Assembly: GCF_022846655.1 (NCBI RefSeq)
Contig: NZ_AP025667.1
Location: 3,695,001-3,759,000, forward strand
Direction of reading: 5' to 3'
DNA length: 64,000 bases
DNA from: Streptomyces seoulensis
GTDB taxonomy: Bacteria; Actinomycetota; Actinomycetes; Streptomycetales; Streptomycetaceae
Position 1 is the stretch's first letter, and the number at the start of each line of letters is the position of its first letter. Position numbers and translations under genes: made by a program. The notes beneath the pieces were generated by a model that saw only the letters and a list, made by a program, of their open reading frames with translations, ran no database searches and was not told where the DNA came from. Positions 23,768-33,275 of the stretch are shown in pieces.

Positions 23768-25669
23768 ATGGCCAAGGCAGTGGGCATCGACCTGGGCACC
23801 ACCAACTCGGTGATCGCCGTGTGGGAGGGCGGCGAGCCGTCCGTGGTGCCCAACAGCGAGGGCAACCGCACGACACCGTCCGTGGTGGCCTTCACCGACA
23901 CCGGGGAACGTCTGGTGGGCCAGCTGGCCCGGCGCCAGGCGATCCTCAATCCCAAGGGCACCATCTACTCGGCCAAGCGGTTCATCGGCCGGCACTTCGA
24001 CGAGATCTCCGAAGAGGCCAGGGCGGTGGCGTACGACGTCGTCGAGGGCGAGGGCGGGGCGGCCCGCATCAAGGTGCGCGACAAGCTGTACGCGCCTGAG
24101 GAGATCAGCGCACAGGTGCTCCGCAAACTCGCTGACGACGCCTCCAAGCAGCTCGGGGAGCGGGTCACGGAGGCGGTCATCACGGTGCCCGCCTACTTCA
24201 ACGACGCTCAGCGCACCGCCACCAAGGACGCCGGGCGGATCGCCGGACTGGAGGTGCTGCGGATCATCAACGAGCCCACGGCGGCCGCCCTCGCGTACGG
24301 CATGGACAAGAAGGAGCACGAGACCGTCCTCGTCTTCGACCTGGGTGGCGGCACCTTCGACGTGAGCATCCTCGACGTCGGCGACGGGGTGGTGGAGGTG
24401 CGCTCCACCGCCGGGGACAGCCACCTGGGCGGCGACGACTTCGACCGGCGCCTGGTGGATCACCTCGCGGACGGCTTCCAGAAGGAGAACGGCATCGACC
24501 TGCGCAAGGACCCGCAGGCGCTGCAACGACTGTTCGAGGCAGCGGAGAAGGCCAAGACCGAGCTGAGTTCGGTGACGCAGACGCAGGTCAGCCTGCCGTT
24601 CATCACCGCCGACGCCGCCGGGCCCAAGCATCTCACCGCCTCGATCATGCGGTCCACGTTCGAGCAGATCACCGGCGACCTGGTGGAGCGCTGCCTGGGG
24701 CCGGTACAGCAGGCCATGGCCGACGCCAAGGTCGGCGAGAGCGACATCGACGAGGTCATCCTCGTCGGCGGTTCCACCCGCATCCCCGCTGTCCAGGCTC
24801 TGGTCCGCCGACTGACCGGCGGCAAGGAACCCAACATGAGCGTCAACCCCGACGAGGTCGTGGCCCTGGGCGCCGCGATCCAGGCCGGGGTGCTCAAGGG
24901 CGAGGTCAAGGACGTCCTGCTGCTCGACGTCACCCCCTTGTCGCTGGGCGTGGAGACGCGCGGCGGAGTGATGACCAAGATCATCGATCGGAACACCACC
25001 ATCCCGGTGCGCCGCAGCGAGACCTTCTCCACCGCCGAGGACAACCAGCCCGCCGTCGATGTGGTGGTCCTCCAGGGCGAGCGCGAACGGGCCGCCGACA
25101 ACCGCGTGCTGGGCCGGTTCCAGCTCACCGACATCCGGCCGGCGCCGCGGGGCGAACCGCAGGTCGAGGTTACCTTCGACATCGACGCCAACGGCATCCT
25201 CGACGTCAAGGCCCGCGACCGGGACACCGGCAAGGAACAGGGCATCACCATCAGCGAGAGCTCCAACCTGGACCGCGGTGAGGTCGAACGCATGGTCCAG
25301 GAGGCCGAGCGCAACCAGGGCCAGGACCAGGCACTCCGCGAGGCGGTCGACGCCCGCAACGAACTGGACGCCGTCGCGTATCAGGTCGAGAAGCGTCTCG
25401 CCGAACTGGGCGACGCGGCGCCCGCGCACGAGAAGGCACGCGCGGAGATGCTCGTGTCCGACGCCCGGGCGGCGGTCAAGGAGGAGGCGGGCGTGGAGCG
25501 TGTGCGGCCTCTGACCTCCGAACTGCAGCAGGTGCTGGCCGGGCTGGCAGCCCATCAGGGCGGAGCATCCCCGGGTGGCGGTCCCGGCCAGGACGCCGCC
25601 ACCGGCGGTCCCGCGAGTGGCGGTGGCGGTGACGATGATGTCATCGACGCCGAGTTCGACAAGGGCTGA
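23768..25669 (+). CDS. dnaK: Chaperone DnaK (Hsp70), accessory copy
   Basis: Predicted 633 residues, full length. The ATPase domain shows [20 protein letters not shown], the phosphate loop [14 protein letters not shown] and [14 protein letters not shown]; the substrate domain begins near residue 390 ([20 protein letters not shown]). The tail [13 protein letters not shown] then DKG ends in a DnaK-type acidic motif. The ATG follows GGGAGGAG. It folds and refolds proteins with DnaJ and GrpE. It heads a six-gene overlapping operon without HspR. Streptomyces carry a housekeeping dnaK-grpE-dnaJ-hspR operon, so this is most likely a second, stress-dedicated copy. Confidence 0.96.
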
Positions 25670-25677
25670 GGCGCGCC

Positions 25678-31263: not shown

Positions 31264-31527
31264 ATGGTCACGATTCCCGACCCGCACCTGGCGATGGTGC
31301 GTCCAGTGACGCCGCGTACCCCGCGCGGCTGCGAGGAGTGCCTCATGGAGGGGTCCCCGTGGGTGCATCTGCGGCTCTGCCTCACCTGCGGGCACGTCGG
31401 CTGCTGCGACTCCTCGCCCATGAGACACGCGAGGCGGCACGCGGGCAGTGACGACCACCCCGTCGTGCAGTCCTTCGAACCGGGAGAGGACTGGCGCTGG
31501 TGCTTCGTCCACGAGGCGCTGGTCTGA
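31264..31527 (+). CDS. UBP-type zinc-finger protein
   Basis: Predicted 87 residues. Most of the protein is one ZnF-UBP domain: Cys23 and Cys26 (GCEEC), Cys39 and Cys42 (CLTC), then GHVGCCDSS and the histidines in RHARRHAGSDDHPVVQSFEP, with a terminal WRWCFVHEAL strand. In eukaryotes this domain binds the free C-terminal glycine tail of ubiquitin. Bacterial versions are small and usually stand alone; their ligand is unknown. The ATG follows AAGGGAG. The stop overlaps the flavoprotein start (TGATG), so the two proteins are very likely partners. Confidence 0.9.
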   Translation: MVTIPDPHLAMVRPVTPRTPRGCEECLMEGSPWVHLRLCLTCGHVGCCDSSPMRHARRHAGSDDHPVVQSFEPGEDWRWCFVHEALV

Positions 31528-33275
31528 TGAGCACCGCCGAGTACGACGATGGCGCGGTCCGCGAGACACCGGACCGATACGGGGCGTTTCCGCGCCTGAC
31601 ACCGGAGCAGCTCCAGGACCTGGCCGCGCACGGTGAGCGCCGCACGACCACCGCGGGCGAGGTGCTGTACCGCGAGGGCGAGCCGTTCCGGGAGTTCCTC
31701 GTGATCCTGGACGGGACCGTCGCGGTCCTCGAGGATCACGGTGGCCCGGAGGAGCGCACGGTGGCGGTGCACGGACCCGGCAGGTTCCTGGGGGAACTCG
31801 GGTTGCTGGAGGGCCAGGCGGCGTTCGAGACCGCCGTGGTGCGCGAGGCGGGCGAGATCCTGGCCGTACCGGTGGAGCGGCAACGCGCTCTCGTCGCCCG
31901 AGACCCCGTCCTCGGCGATCTGATCCTCCGTGCCTACCTGGGCCGCAGGTATCTGCTCATCGGCCTCGGGGCCGGCTTCCGGATCCTCGGCTCGTGCTAC
32001 TCGCGGGACACACTGCGGCTGCGTGAGTTCGCCGCGCGTAACCGGCTGCCCCACCGCTGGGTGGATCTGGAGAAGGACAAGGAGGCGGAGGCGCTGCTGC
32101 GCCGGTTCGCGATCAGTCCCGAGGAGACTCCGGTGGTCGTCTTGAAGGGCGAGAGGGTGCTGCGCAATCCGAGCAACGCCGAACTCGCCCGATGCATCGG
32201 GCTGCCGGCCCCGGAGCCGGAGGCGGGGCGGTGCGAGGTGATGGTGGTGGGTGCGGGCCCCGCGGGACTCGCCGCCGCCGTGTACGGCGCCTCCGACGGC
32301 CTCACCACGGTCGCCGTCGACGCCGTGGCCACCGGAGGTCAGGCCGGGACCTCGTCCCGTATCGAGAACTACCTCGGCTTCCCCTCGGGCATCTCCGGGG
32401 GCGAGCTGATCGAACGCGCGGTGCTCCAGGCCCACAAGTTCGGGGCTCGCCTGATGGTGCCGGCCCAGGTCAGCGGGCTCACAGCGCAGGAGGACGAGTA
32501 CGTCGTCACCTTCACGGACGGGTCCCAGACCCGGGCGGGCGCCGTGGTGCTCGCGTCGGGTGTGCGGTACCGCAGGCTCGACGTGCCCGGCATCGACCGT
32601 CTTGAGGGCGTCAGCGTGTACTACGCGGCGACCGTCCACGAGGCGAGTCTCTGCACGGCGGATCCGGTCGCCGTGGTCGGCGGTGGGAACTCCGCCGGGC
32701 AGGCGGCGCTGTTCCTCTCCGACCACGCGTCCCGGGTCCACCTCCTCGTCCGGGGCGGTGACCTCAACGCGGACATGTCGCGTTACCTGGTTGATCAGGT
32801 GGAACGGCACCCGAACATCGAGGTGCTGCTTCACACCGAAGTCCGGGGCGTCTTCGGGGAGGAGAGACTGGAATCGCTGATCGTGGAGGACAACGCAACC
32901 GGTGAGCGCAGGGAGGTGCGGGCCGTGGCGCTGTTCGTGTTCATCGGGGCCCGGCCGCGCACGGACTGGCTCAGGGGCGTGCTGGCCCTGGATGAGAAGG
33001 GCTTCGTCCTCACCGGAGCTGACGCCCAGGCGGCGGCCGACGCCGCCCGGTGGGACTCGCTCGGCCGAGGCCCGTTGCTGCTGGAGACCACTCTTCCCGG
33101 AGTCTTCGCCGTCGGCGATGTCAGGAGCGGCTCGGTCAAGCGGGTGGCCTCGGCGGCAGGCGAGGGTGCCATGGCAATCCGCCTCGTGCATGAACACCGG
33201 GGGAAGACCGGCAACTTGATCCGCACCGCGGGTCCCGAGGAACATCGCCCGGTCGCGGGCCAGTCCGCGTCCTGA
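31527..33275 (+). CDS. cNMP-binding / thioredoxin-like / thioredoxin-reductase-like fusion flavoprotein
   Basis: Predicted 582 residues in three parts. Residues 20-135 form a cyclic-nucleotide-binding domain (GEVLYREGEPFREFLVILDG, GRFLGELGLLEGQAA). Residues about 148-230 resemble a thioredoxin-like fold (SCYSRDTLRLREFAARNRLP, TPVVVLKGERVLRNPS) with one cysteine. The rest is a TrxR-type module: FAD site MVVGAGPAGLAAA (about 240), NAD(P)H site AVVGGGNSAGQAAL (about 384) and FAVGDVRSGSVKR (about 530). Where thioredoxin reductase has its CxxC (YCATCDG) this protein has YYAATVHEASLC, so the redox disulfide is missing. It may use the single cysteine or a partner. TGATG overlap couples it to the UBP finger. 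Confidence 0.92.
   Translation: MSTAEYDDGAVRETPDRYGAFPRLTPEQLQDLAAHGERRTTTAGEVLYREGEPFREFLVILDGTVAVLEDHGGPEERTVAVHGPGRFLGELGLLEGQAAFETAVVREAGEILAVPVERQRALVARDPVLGDLILRAYLGRRYLLIGLGAGFRILGSCYSRDTLRLREFAARNRLPHRWVDLEKDKEAEALLRRFAISPEETPVVVLKGERVLRNPSNAELARCIGLPAPEPEAGRCEVMVVGAGPAGLAAAVYGASDGLTTVAVDAVATGGQAGTSSRIENYLGFPSGISGGELIERAVLQAHKFGARLMVPAQVSGLTAQEDEYVVTFTDGSQTRAGAVVLASGVRYRRLDVPGIDRLEGVSVYYAATVHEASLCTADPVAVVGGGNSAGQAALFLSDHASRVHLLVRGGDLNADMSRYLVDQVERHPNIEVLLHTEVRGVFGEERLESLIVEDNATGERREVRAVALFVFIGARPRTDWLRGVLALDEKGFVLTGADAQAAADAARWDSLGRGPLLLETTLPGVFAVGDVRSGSVKRVASAAGEGAMAIRLVHEHRGKTGNLIRTAGPEEHRPVAGQSAS

Follow-up and report, generated by a model that had tools for sequence, protein, structure and literature searches.

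An accessory, patchily distributed DnaK-ClpB operon of Streptomyces seoulensis linked to a thioredoxin and a CxxC-less flavoprotein

We analyzed 64,000 nucleotides of Streptomyces seoulensis DNA (contig NZ_AP025667.1, positions 3,695,001 to 3,759,000; this whole stretch is termed the window), which carry a block of chaperone and redox genes at positions 23768-33275 of the + strand. An analysis of open reading frames and domains recovered all nine genes in the order and on the strand first described, and the spacing and Pfam matches agree with the initial annotation. The first six encode an accessory DnaK of 633 residues (23768-25669; PF00012, 820 bits; TIGR02350, 964 bits, above cut-off), GrpE (25678-26286; PF01025), a CbpA-type J protein that matches PF00226 (DnaJ) and PF01556 (DnaJ_C) only and lacks the DnaJ zinc centre (26293-27240), a CbpM-like MerR_2 protein (27240-27605; PF13591, 33.8 bits, cut-off 29), a second copy of ClpB (27596-30235; TIGR03346, 1352 bits, cut-off 1232) and a thioredoxin (30232-30690; Pfam Thioredoxin) with an N-terminal zinc-type CxxC...CxxC motif and a WCGPC site. 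NCBIfam names both DnaK and ClpB above cut-off.

These six genes are tightly joined, with gaps of 8 bp between dnaK and grpE and 6 bp between grpE and cbpA, and overlaps of 1 bp between cbpA and cbpM (TGATG, 27238-27242), 10 bp between cbpM and clpB and 4 bp between clpB and the thioredoxin gene (trx). Looser joints of 71 and 73 bp flank a DUF2267 gene (30762-31190; PF10025). It is followed by the gene of a stand-alone UBP-type zinc finger of 87 residues (31264-31527; PF02148 (zf-UBP), 49.3 bits; PDB 2ida, E 3.6e-30), which overlaps by 1 bp (TGATG, 31525-31529) the gene of a flavoprotein with a cyclic nucleotide (cNMP)-binding-like domain, a glutaredoxin fold and a thioredoxin reductase (TrxR) fold (31527-33275; cNMP_binding and Pyr_redox_2). 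The arrangement is more than chance, because the same order was found again in many genomes. The initial annotation had spoken of a chaperone machine fused to the UBP finger/flavoprotein pair; gene order and translational coupling bear this out, but no protein fusion joins the chaperones to the flavoprotein.

At 6.47 Mb of the genome (6.54 Mb, one contig) lies another dnaK-grpE-dnaJ operon, accompanied by an hspR-like gene, and the other clpB copy lies at 6.464 Mb. The accessory and housekeeping DnaK proteins are 57% identical in the best stretch. The two operons have the first three genes in common, and in each the fourth gene is MerR-like, but in the window the J protein lacks the zinc centre, the fourth protein falls short of the HspR model (NF047375, 30.1 bits, cut-off 105), clpB and trx come after, and no HspR-associated inverted repeat (HAIR) precedes dnaK in the divergent intergenic region (23546-23767). 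With a HAIR consensus, the housekeeping dnaK showed a near-perfect site at -39 (1 mismatch of 14), whereas the best site in the 300 bp upstream of the window dnaK had 4 mismatches of 14 (shuffles average 5.3). The upstream set comprised 63 dnaK copies, this housekeeping copy and 62 accessory ones; the best sites in 300 bp upstream of the latter had 4-6 mismatches, with shuffles at ∼5.3. No CIRCE, HAIR, or sigR- or sigB-like pattern was found in the 300 bp upstream of the accessory copies, although the promoter may be further up where a stress-protein gene directly precedes. An alignment of the upstream regions of 11 Streptomyces-type loci gave no convincing common motif. HspR-type control of the accessory operon was rejected, the upstream motif searches being empty for the accessory copies, and the regulator of its own that the annotation had assigned to the system finds no support either in these searches or in the match of the CbpM-like protein to the HspR model. 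We use the name CbpM-like only, because the NCBIfam CbpM model also failed (NF007617, 28.4 bits, cut-off 138) and PF13591 passed next to an adjoining cbpA; PDB 3ucs (CbpM) matches the protein at E 4e-4. A divergent PucR/CdaR-type helix-turn-helix regulator (21701-23545, - strand; PF13556, PF17853) is a candidate regulator, and homologues occur at 19 of 61 chaperone loci vs. 1 of 52 others, with flanks of unequal length. The six-gene block is an accessory operon of coupled genes, separate from the housekeeping dnaK operon with its HAIR, in line with the accessory stress-repair operon proposed earlier.

A search with the CbpM-like protein gave matches in 139 of 246 genomes of the class, which fall into a strong and a weak layer. 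The strong layer (E <= ∼1e-11) covers 30 of the 246 genomes and 3 of 22 genomes of the genus. The weaker layer (E from 6e-8), which includes the genome's own hspR-like gene at its separate locus (E 8e-7), is probably HspR. At the 33 strong loci (∼10 kb), dnaK was found in 31, clpB in 27, trx in 12, UBP in 15, a flavoprotein match in 22 (20 substantial) and UBP or flavoprotein in 25. Among the 22 flavoproteins, one is a fragment (L143) and one a remnant (L141), two end with the fetched stretch (L132 and L136), and two match only from ∼residue 130 (L156 and L158). The remnant, a C-terminal piece directly behind clpB (L141, 6869-7282), has the look of a decaying copy.

A cbpM-like gene was present on 20 plasmid records (15 Rhodococcus, 2 Streptomyces, 2 Nocardia and 1 Gordonia). 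A close flavoprotein (at least 59% identity) lies within ∼6 kb of 14 of these 20 copies, among the matches listed (40 of 134). Behind clpB, three copies (L160, L190 and L191) retain a disrupted trx and the final portion of the flavoprotein and a fourth (L161) has IS3 elements; in a fifth (L189) clpB itself breaks off early. A variant (L192, 2648-14031) has M48 and trypsin-like protease genes behind, two Hsp20 genes upstream and a STAS protein; no trx, UBP or flavoprotein was found in a scan of this locus. The operon moves horizontally, and its cbpM-like gene is patchy in the class.

To what extent the flavoprotein tail belongs with the chaperones was judged from a flavoprotein search of named genomes, for which the best 80 of 593 stretches (583 relatives) were kept; the group under 54% identity is a sample only. 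A locus was scored as having chaperones when it held four or all of the five genes. This was the case at 27 of 36 loci with at least 54% identity (24 of 29 with at least 9 kb upstream), and at 0 of 44 below 54% (0 of 23 with at least 9 kb upstream). Within 1.5 kb of the flavoprotein, trx was found at 28 and UBP at 20 of the 36 closer loci; UBP was found at 11 of the 44 distant ones. Two loci (L051 and L055) have trx beside the flavoprotein and no chaperone in the stretch examined. Synteny in related genomes supports the proposed link of the chaperones to thioredoxin and flavoprotein. By the annotation's own criterion, whether the last genes occur without the chaperones in most genomes, the outcome is divided: the reading of the genes as one system stands for the flavoprotein's own clade, and does not extend to the wider flavoprotein/UBP family or to DUF2267. 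The latter lies within 10 kb of the flavoprotein at 5 of the 80 loci, and between trx and UBP at one (L040), and so is an occasional insert rather than the core member it had been taken for.

In a quick tree of 110 flavoprotein rows, all 47 chaperone-linked flavoproteins fall in one actinobacterial clade of 54 rows (Shimodaira-Hasegawa-like approximate likelihood ratio test, SH-aLRT, 97); the closest neighbours of the window's flavoprotein are from Streptomyces. The flavoprotein scan supplied 27 of the 47 rows and the cbpM search, whose rows are linked by construction, 16; three are from plasmids and one is the window's own. Seven matches too short for alignment (L114, L132, L136, L141, L143, L156 and L158) were left out. 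Two of the seven non-linked clade members (L049 and L066) are no further than 1.5 kb from the start of a contig. Because all linked flavoproteins share one clade, a single capture of the flavoprotein by the chaperone operon is likely, and one capture followed by losses is the simplest reading. The three broken plasmid tails are examples of such later losses.

The same distribution could be produced by a stress island that collects separately useful genes, the chaperones and the flavoprotein/UBP pair being inherited together and not acting together. The pair lives without chaperones in the distant part of the sample (chaperones at 0 of 44 loci), 13 of the 33 cbpM loci have no flavoprotein match (11) or only a piece (2), and 6 of the 20 plasmid copies keep dnaK but have a broken tail or none, proteases taking its place in L192. 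Other stress genes also recur nearby: the 61 chaperone loci have a YflT-type stress protein in 25, a zinc alcohol dehydrogenase in 24, and a PucR-type regulator, DUF1931 and Hsp20 in 19 each, vs. 1 or 2 each in the 52 other loci, where flanks are often shorter (DUF1931, 1 of 52). We regard such mere co-inheritance as possible but somewhat doubtful, since the order is fixed, starts overlap or abut across many genera and one clade holds all 47 linked flavoproteins.

The flavoprotein unites a cNMP_binding domain and a TrxR domain in one chain, as in the proteins that NCBI plasmid annotation names 'cyclic nucleotide-binding domain-containing thioredoxin-disulfide reductase'. The cNMP-binding-like domain (residues 40-125, 31644-31901) matches PF00027 at 57.3 bits (cut-off 27.5). 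At alignment column 101, which we align with the phosphate-binding Arg of CRP, none of 99 rows has Arg, and R[STA][AST] occurs in the region in 6 of 99; the earlier description of the flavoenzyme as nucleotide-sensing finds no support in this alignment. The glutaredoxin-fold domain (residues 146-232, 31962-32222) lacks CxxC at the expected place (columns 155-162) and mostly has GSxxS instead. The TrxR fold has FAD and NADPH motifs and stays under the cut-off of TIGR01292 (219 bits, cut-off 343). At the place of its redox-active CxxC, which is present in 0 of 99 rows, lies a YYAATxxEAxxC motif (residues 365-376, 32619-32654), with C376 and E372 each in 98 of 99 rows. The canonical TrxR route is closed, because neither redox domain has a CxxC. 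The best Foldseek match is AhpF (4o5q, E 1.2e-32), which likewise has a thioredoxin-fold domain ahead of the TrxR domain, but here both CxxC pairs are gone and a cNMP domain stands in front.

A thioredoxin reductase with a cNMP domain, ATII-TrxR, has been reported to reduce thioredoxin (Km 1.03 uM, kcat 28.4 /s) and 5,5′-dithiobis-(2-nitrobenzoic acid), with either NADPH or NADH (PMC6544261). A Cupriavidus homologue of the family has no CxxC at either site, and its Cys 220, 237 and 389 are spaced within one residue of ATII Cys206, Cys223 and Cys376. ATII Cys376 is therefore probably the counterpart of window C376. ATII-TrxR thus resembles this family in its cNMP domain and TrxR fold and in a probable common C376; the passages of PMC6544261 that report it do not discuss the loss of CxxC and make no mention of a glutaredoxin fold, a partner UBP finger or a chaperone operon. 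By analogy with ATII-TrxR, the window flavoprotein most likely recycles the operon thioredoxin.

It is unlikely, in our judgement, that the flavoprotein is instead a redox sensor or an NAD(P)H:acceptor oxidoreductase in which C376 senses and the glutaredoxin domain is a dead binding domain. Such a role would fit the absence of both CxxC motifs, a paralogue that carries a receiver domain, and the predicted model, which is closer to the flavin-reducing conformer of Lactococcus lactis TrxR (5mh4, template modelling score 0.92 by target) than to the flavin-oxidising one (5mjk_A, 0.63). Against it stand the thioredoxin reduction reported in PMC6544261 for a probable family member and the adjoining thioredoxin with its intact WCGPC. 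This thioredoxin passes TIGR01068 and is nearest to TrxC, although under the cut-off (109 bits, cut-off 125); the zinc-type CxxC...CxxC and WCGPC are both present in all 50 matches of at least 150 bits (52 matches in all).

These data argue, with moderate confidence on our part, for an accessory protein-repair operon of actinobacteria that moves horizontally and brings its own reducing arm. From the observed anatomy, synteny, predicted folds and lost motifs we infer the electron steps and the gating as follows. DnaK, GrpE and CbpA, modulated by the CbpM-like protein, would pull aggregates apart together with ClpB. The zinc-type thioredoxin may then reduce, through WCGPC, wrong disulfides of clients opened by DnaK-CbpA and ClpB. 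Electrons would pass from NAD(P)H through FAD to the operon thioredoxin without the usual CxxC, probably through C376. The cNMP-like domain, perhaps with the UBP finger, could gate the flavoprotein.

Several observations weigh against this protein-repair reading, and the missing CxxC is the strongest doubt. Of 22 relatives that are receiver-type or similar, only 9 have Cys at the C376 place, and C206 and C223 are present together in only 23 of 99 rows. That ATII-TrxR belongs to this family is probable, on the strength of the domain table in PMC6544261 and of cysteine spacing, and the Cupriavidus homologue has nothing that corresponds to ATII Cys467. Added to these are the cbpM loci without an intact flavoprotein, the empty upstream searches, and the absence of UBP within 1.5 kb at 9 of the 27 chaperone-linked loci (at one, L060, it lies at 1.6 kb). 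The strongest support comes from thioredoxin adjacency and from the activity reported for a single probable relative.

The UBP finger has C47 and C48 in 61 of 61 sequences. A disulfide between one of these cysteines and C376 is weakened as a candidate, because the receiver-type copy of this genome has a UBP gene but Val at the C376 place and because of the nine chaperone-linked loci just mentioned. Pup is not known outside a restricted range of phyla, and Pup binding by the finger was dropped because UBP genes adjoin the flavoprotein in non-actinobacterial phyla too. In alignments with HDAC6 and USP16, Asp49 or Ser50 stands where the eukaryotic pocket Arg aligns; this Arg presumably holds the C-terminal carboxylate in ubiquitin-binding ZnF-UBP domains, and the peptide-binding role first given to the finger is doubtful. 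Two loci of one family (L151 and L152) show an overlap of UBP with the end of cbpM, and their fetched 20 kb give a match to neither clpB nor the flavoprotein. This would suit a finger that is itself the functional link, recruiting clients or C-termini to DnaK/CbpA with the flavoprotein secondary. We consider such a role highly improbable, given the Asp or Ser in the pocket and given fusions of UBP to a CNB histidine kinase (L171, one protein) and to Na+/H+ exchangers, which are easier to reconcile with a regulatory domain than with a client adaptor. The exchangers carry the finger at their C-terminus (L183, 3207-5120; L185, 3291-5165). The kinase fusion, the exchanger fusions and the cbpM overlap point to UBP as a portable regulatory domain of a module rather than a chaperone peptide receptor.

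Such a module is also found apart from the chaperones. The S. seoulensis genome has a second copy (L126), in which a receiver-glutaredoxin-TrxR flavoprotein is followed by a cNMP-domain histidine kinase and a UBP finger. Of 21 receiver-type loci, 12 have the kinase directly adjoining the flavoprotein, 6 have a UBP and none has dnaK or trx; some contigs end early. The Pfam scan for the receiver domain covered L126, the other flavoproteins being called receiver-type from sequence and similarity, and the nine kinase-less loci may differ in build. All 12 kinases match cNMP_binding, 10 over the Pfam cut-off and two (L126 and L167) just under. Among 119 genomes of the phylum, 20 hold both UBP and flavoprotein, 8 the flavoprotein only, 7 UBP only and 84 neither (Fisher p 6e-11, kinship ignored); four of the eight flavoprotein-only genomes are CATC-bearing relatives. 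In 7 of the 20, no more than 10 kb separates UBP from flavoprotein. As judged from sequence distribution, the pair is probably an older module, also found without chaperones, that was captured by the mobile DnaK-ClpB operon. Tentatively, we propose a redox-signalling module of a CxxC-less glutaredoxin-TrxR flavoprotein and a UBP finger, in which, interchangeably, a degenerate cNMP domain is fused directly or sits on a histidine kinase facing a receiver domain; the actinobacterial DnaK-ClpB operon may have captured the direct version once, which would give a disaggregase a sensor-gated TrxR with a single cysteine.

The operon was likened from the outset to proteobacterial heat-resistance islands in logic, with different genes, and this comparison is upheld: the ClpG and ClpK models fail (783 and 773 bits, cut-off 1900 each), whereas ClpB passes. 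Like the transmissible locus of stress tolerance (tLST), it is a mobile accessory disaggregase and thioredoxin island with xenologues of core genes, and the L192 variant adds Hsp20, M48 and trypsin-like proteases. It differs in having ClpB with its own DnaK, GrpE and CbpA, not ClpG/ClpK and Hsp20, and in its flavoprotein and UBP. By Pfam, none of the nine genes encodes Hsp20; homologues occur only as neighbours, at 19 of 61 related loci. The operon acts like a heat-resistance island but falls outside tLST membership. A tLST reportedly also carries a PsiE-like gene. A PsiE-family gene lies beside the operon on a Streptomyces plasmid (L036, 19192-19734), and near L038 and L039 too. An M48 protease is among the genes given for tLST in passages of PMC8290217. 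The Streptomyces avermitilis operon dnaK2-grpE2-dnaJ2, likewise a second dnaK operon in this genus, is named with only three genes in PMC5402319. Among the papers listed from the open-licence PMC literature, none was recognized as a description of the operon or of the UBP-flavoprotein pairing, and one, PMC6544261, concerns a TrxR with a cNMP domain.

Upstream of dnaK within the window lie, besides the PucR-type regulator, genes for a zinc dehydrogenase, a DJ-1 protein and the recurrent neighbour DUF1931 (17837-18346, - strand; PF09123). A UvrA-like ABC protein of 828 residues (14581-17067, + strand) has homologues near chaperone loci L039, L041 and L127. A tRNA-Ala (GGC) of 98 bases called by ARAGORN (20212-20309, + strand) lies inside a probable MFS transporter gene of the opposite strand and is likely false. 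Downstream, HEAT-repeat matches occur in three proteins within 13 kb (33319-34548; 38487-39668, weak and under cut-off; 44352-45701, with ankyrin repeats too), and a penicillinase-repressor-like regulator is followed by an M48/M56-type membrane peptidase in a BlaI/BlaR-like pair (36950-38577, + strand). Rfam gave no match at gathering scores anywhere in the window, and a PADLOC scan of four proteins gave domain-level matches only.

If the protein-repair reading is correct, (i) the operon would be an actinobacterial counterpart of transmissible stress-tolerance islands, present on plasmids of Rhodococcus, Nocardia, Gordonia and Streptomyces; and (ii) disaggregation and disulfide repair would be combined in one operon. 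The family is a group named thioredoxin-disulfide reductase without a catalytic disulfide, with one conserved cysteine to test, and the sensor swap, together with the UBP fusions, gives a way into the role of the prokaryotic UBP finger.

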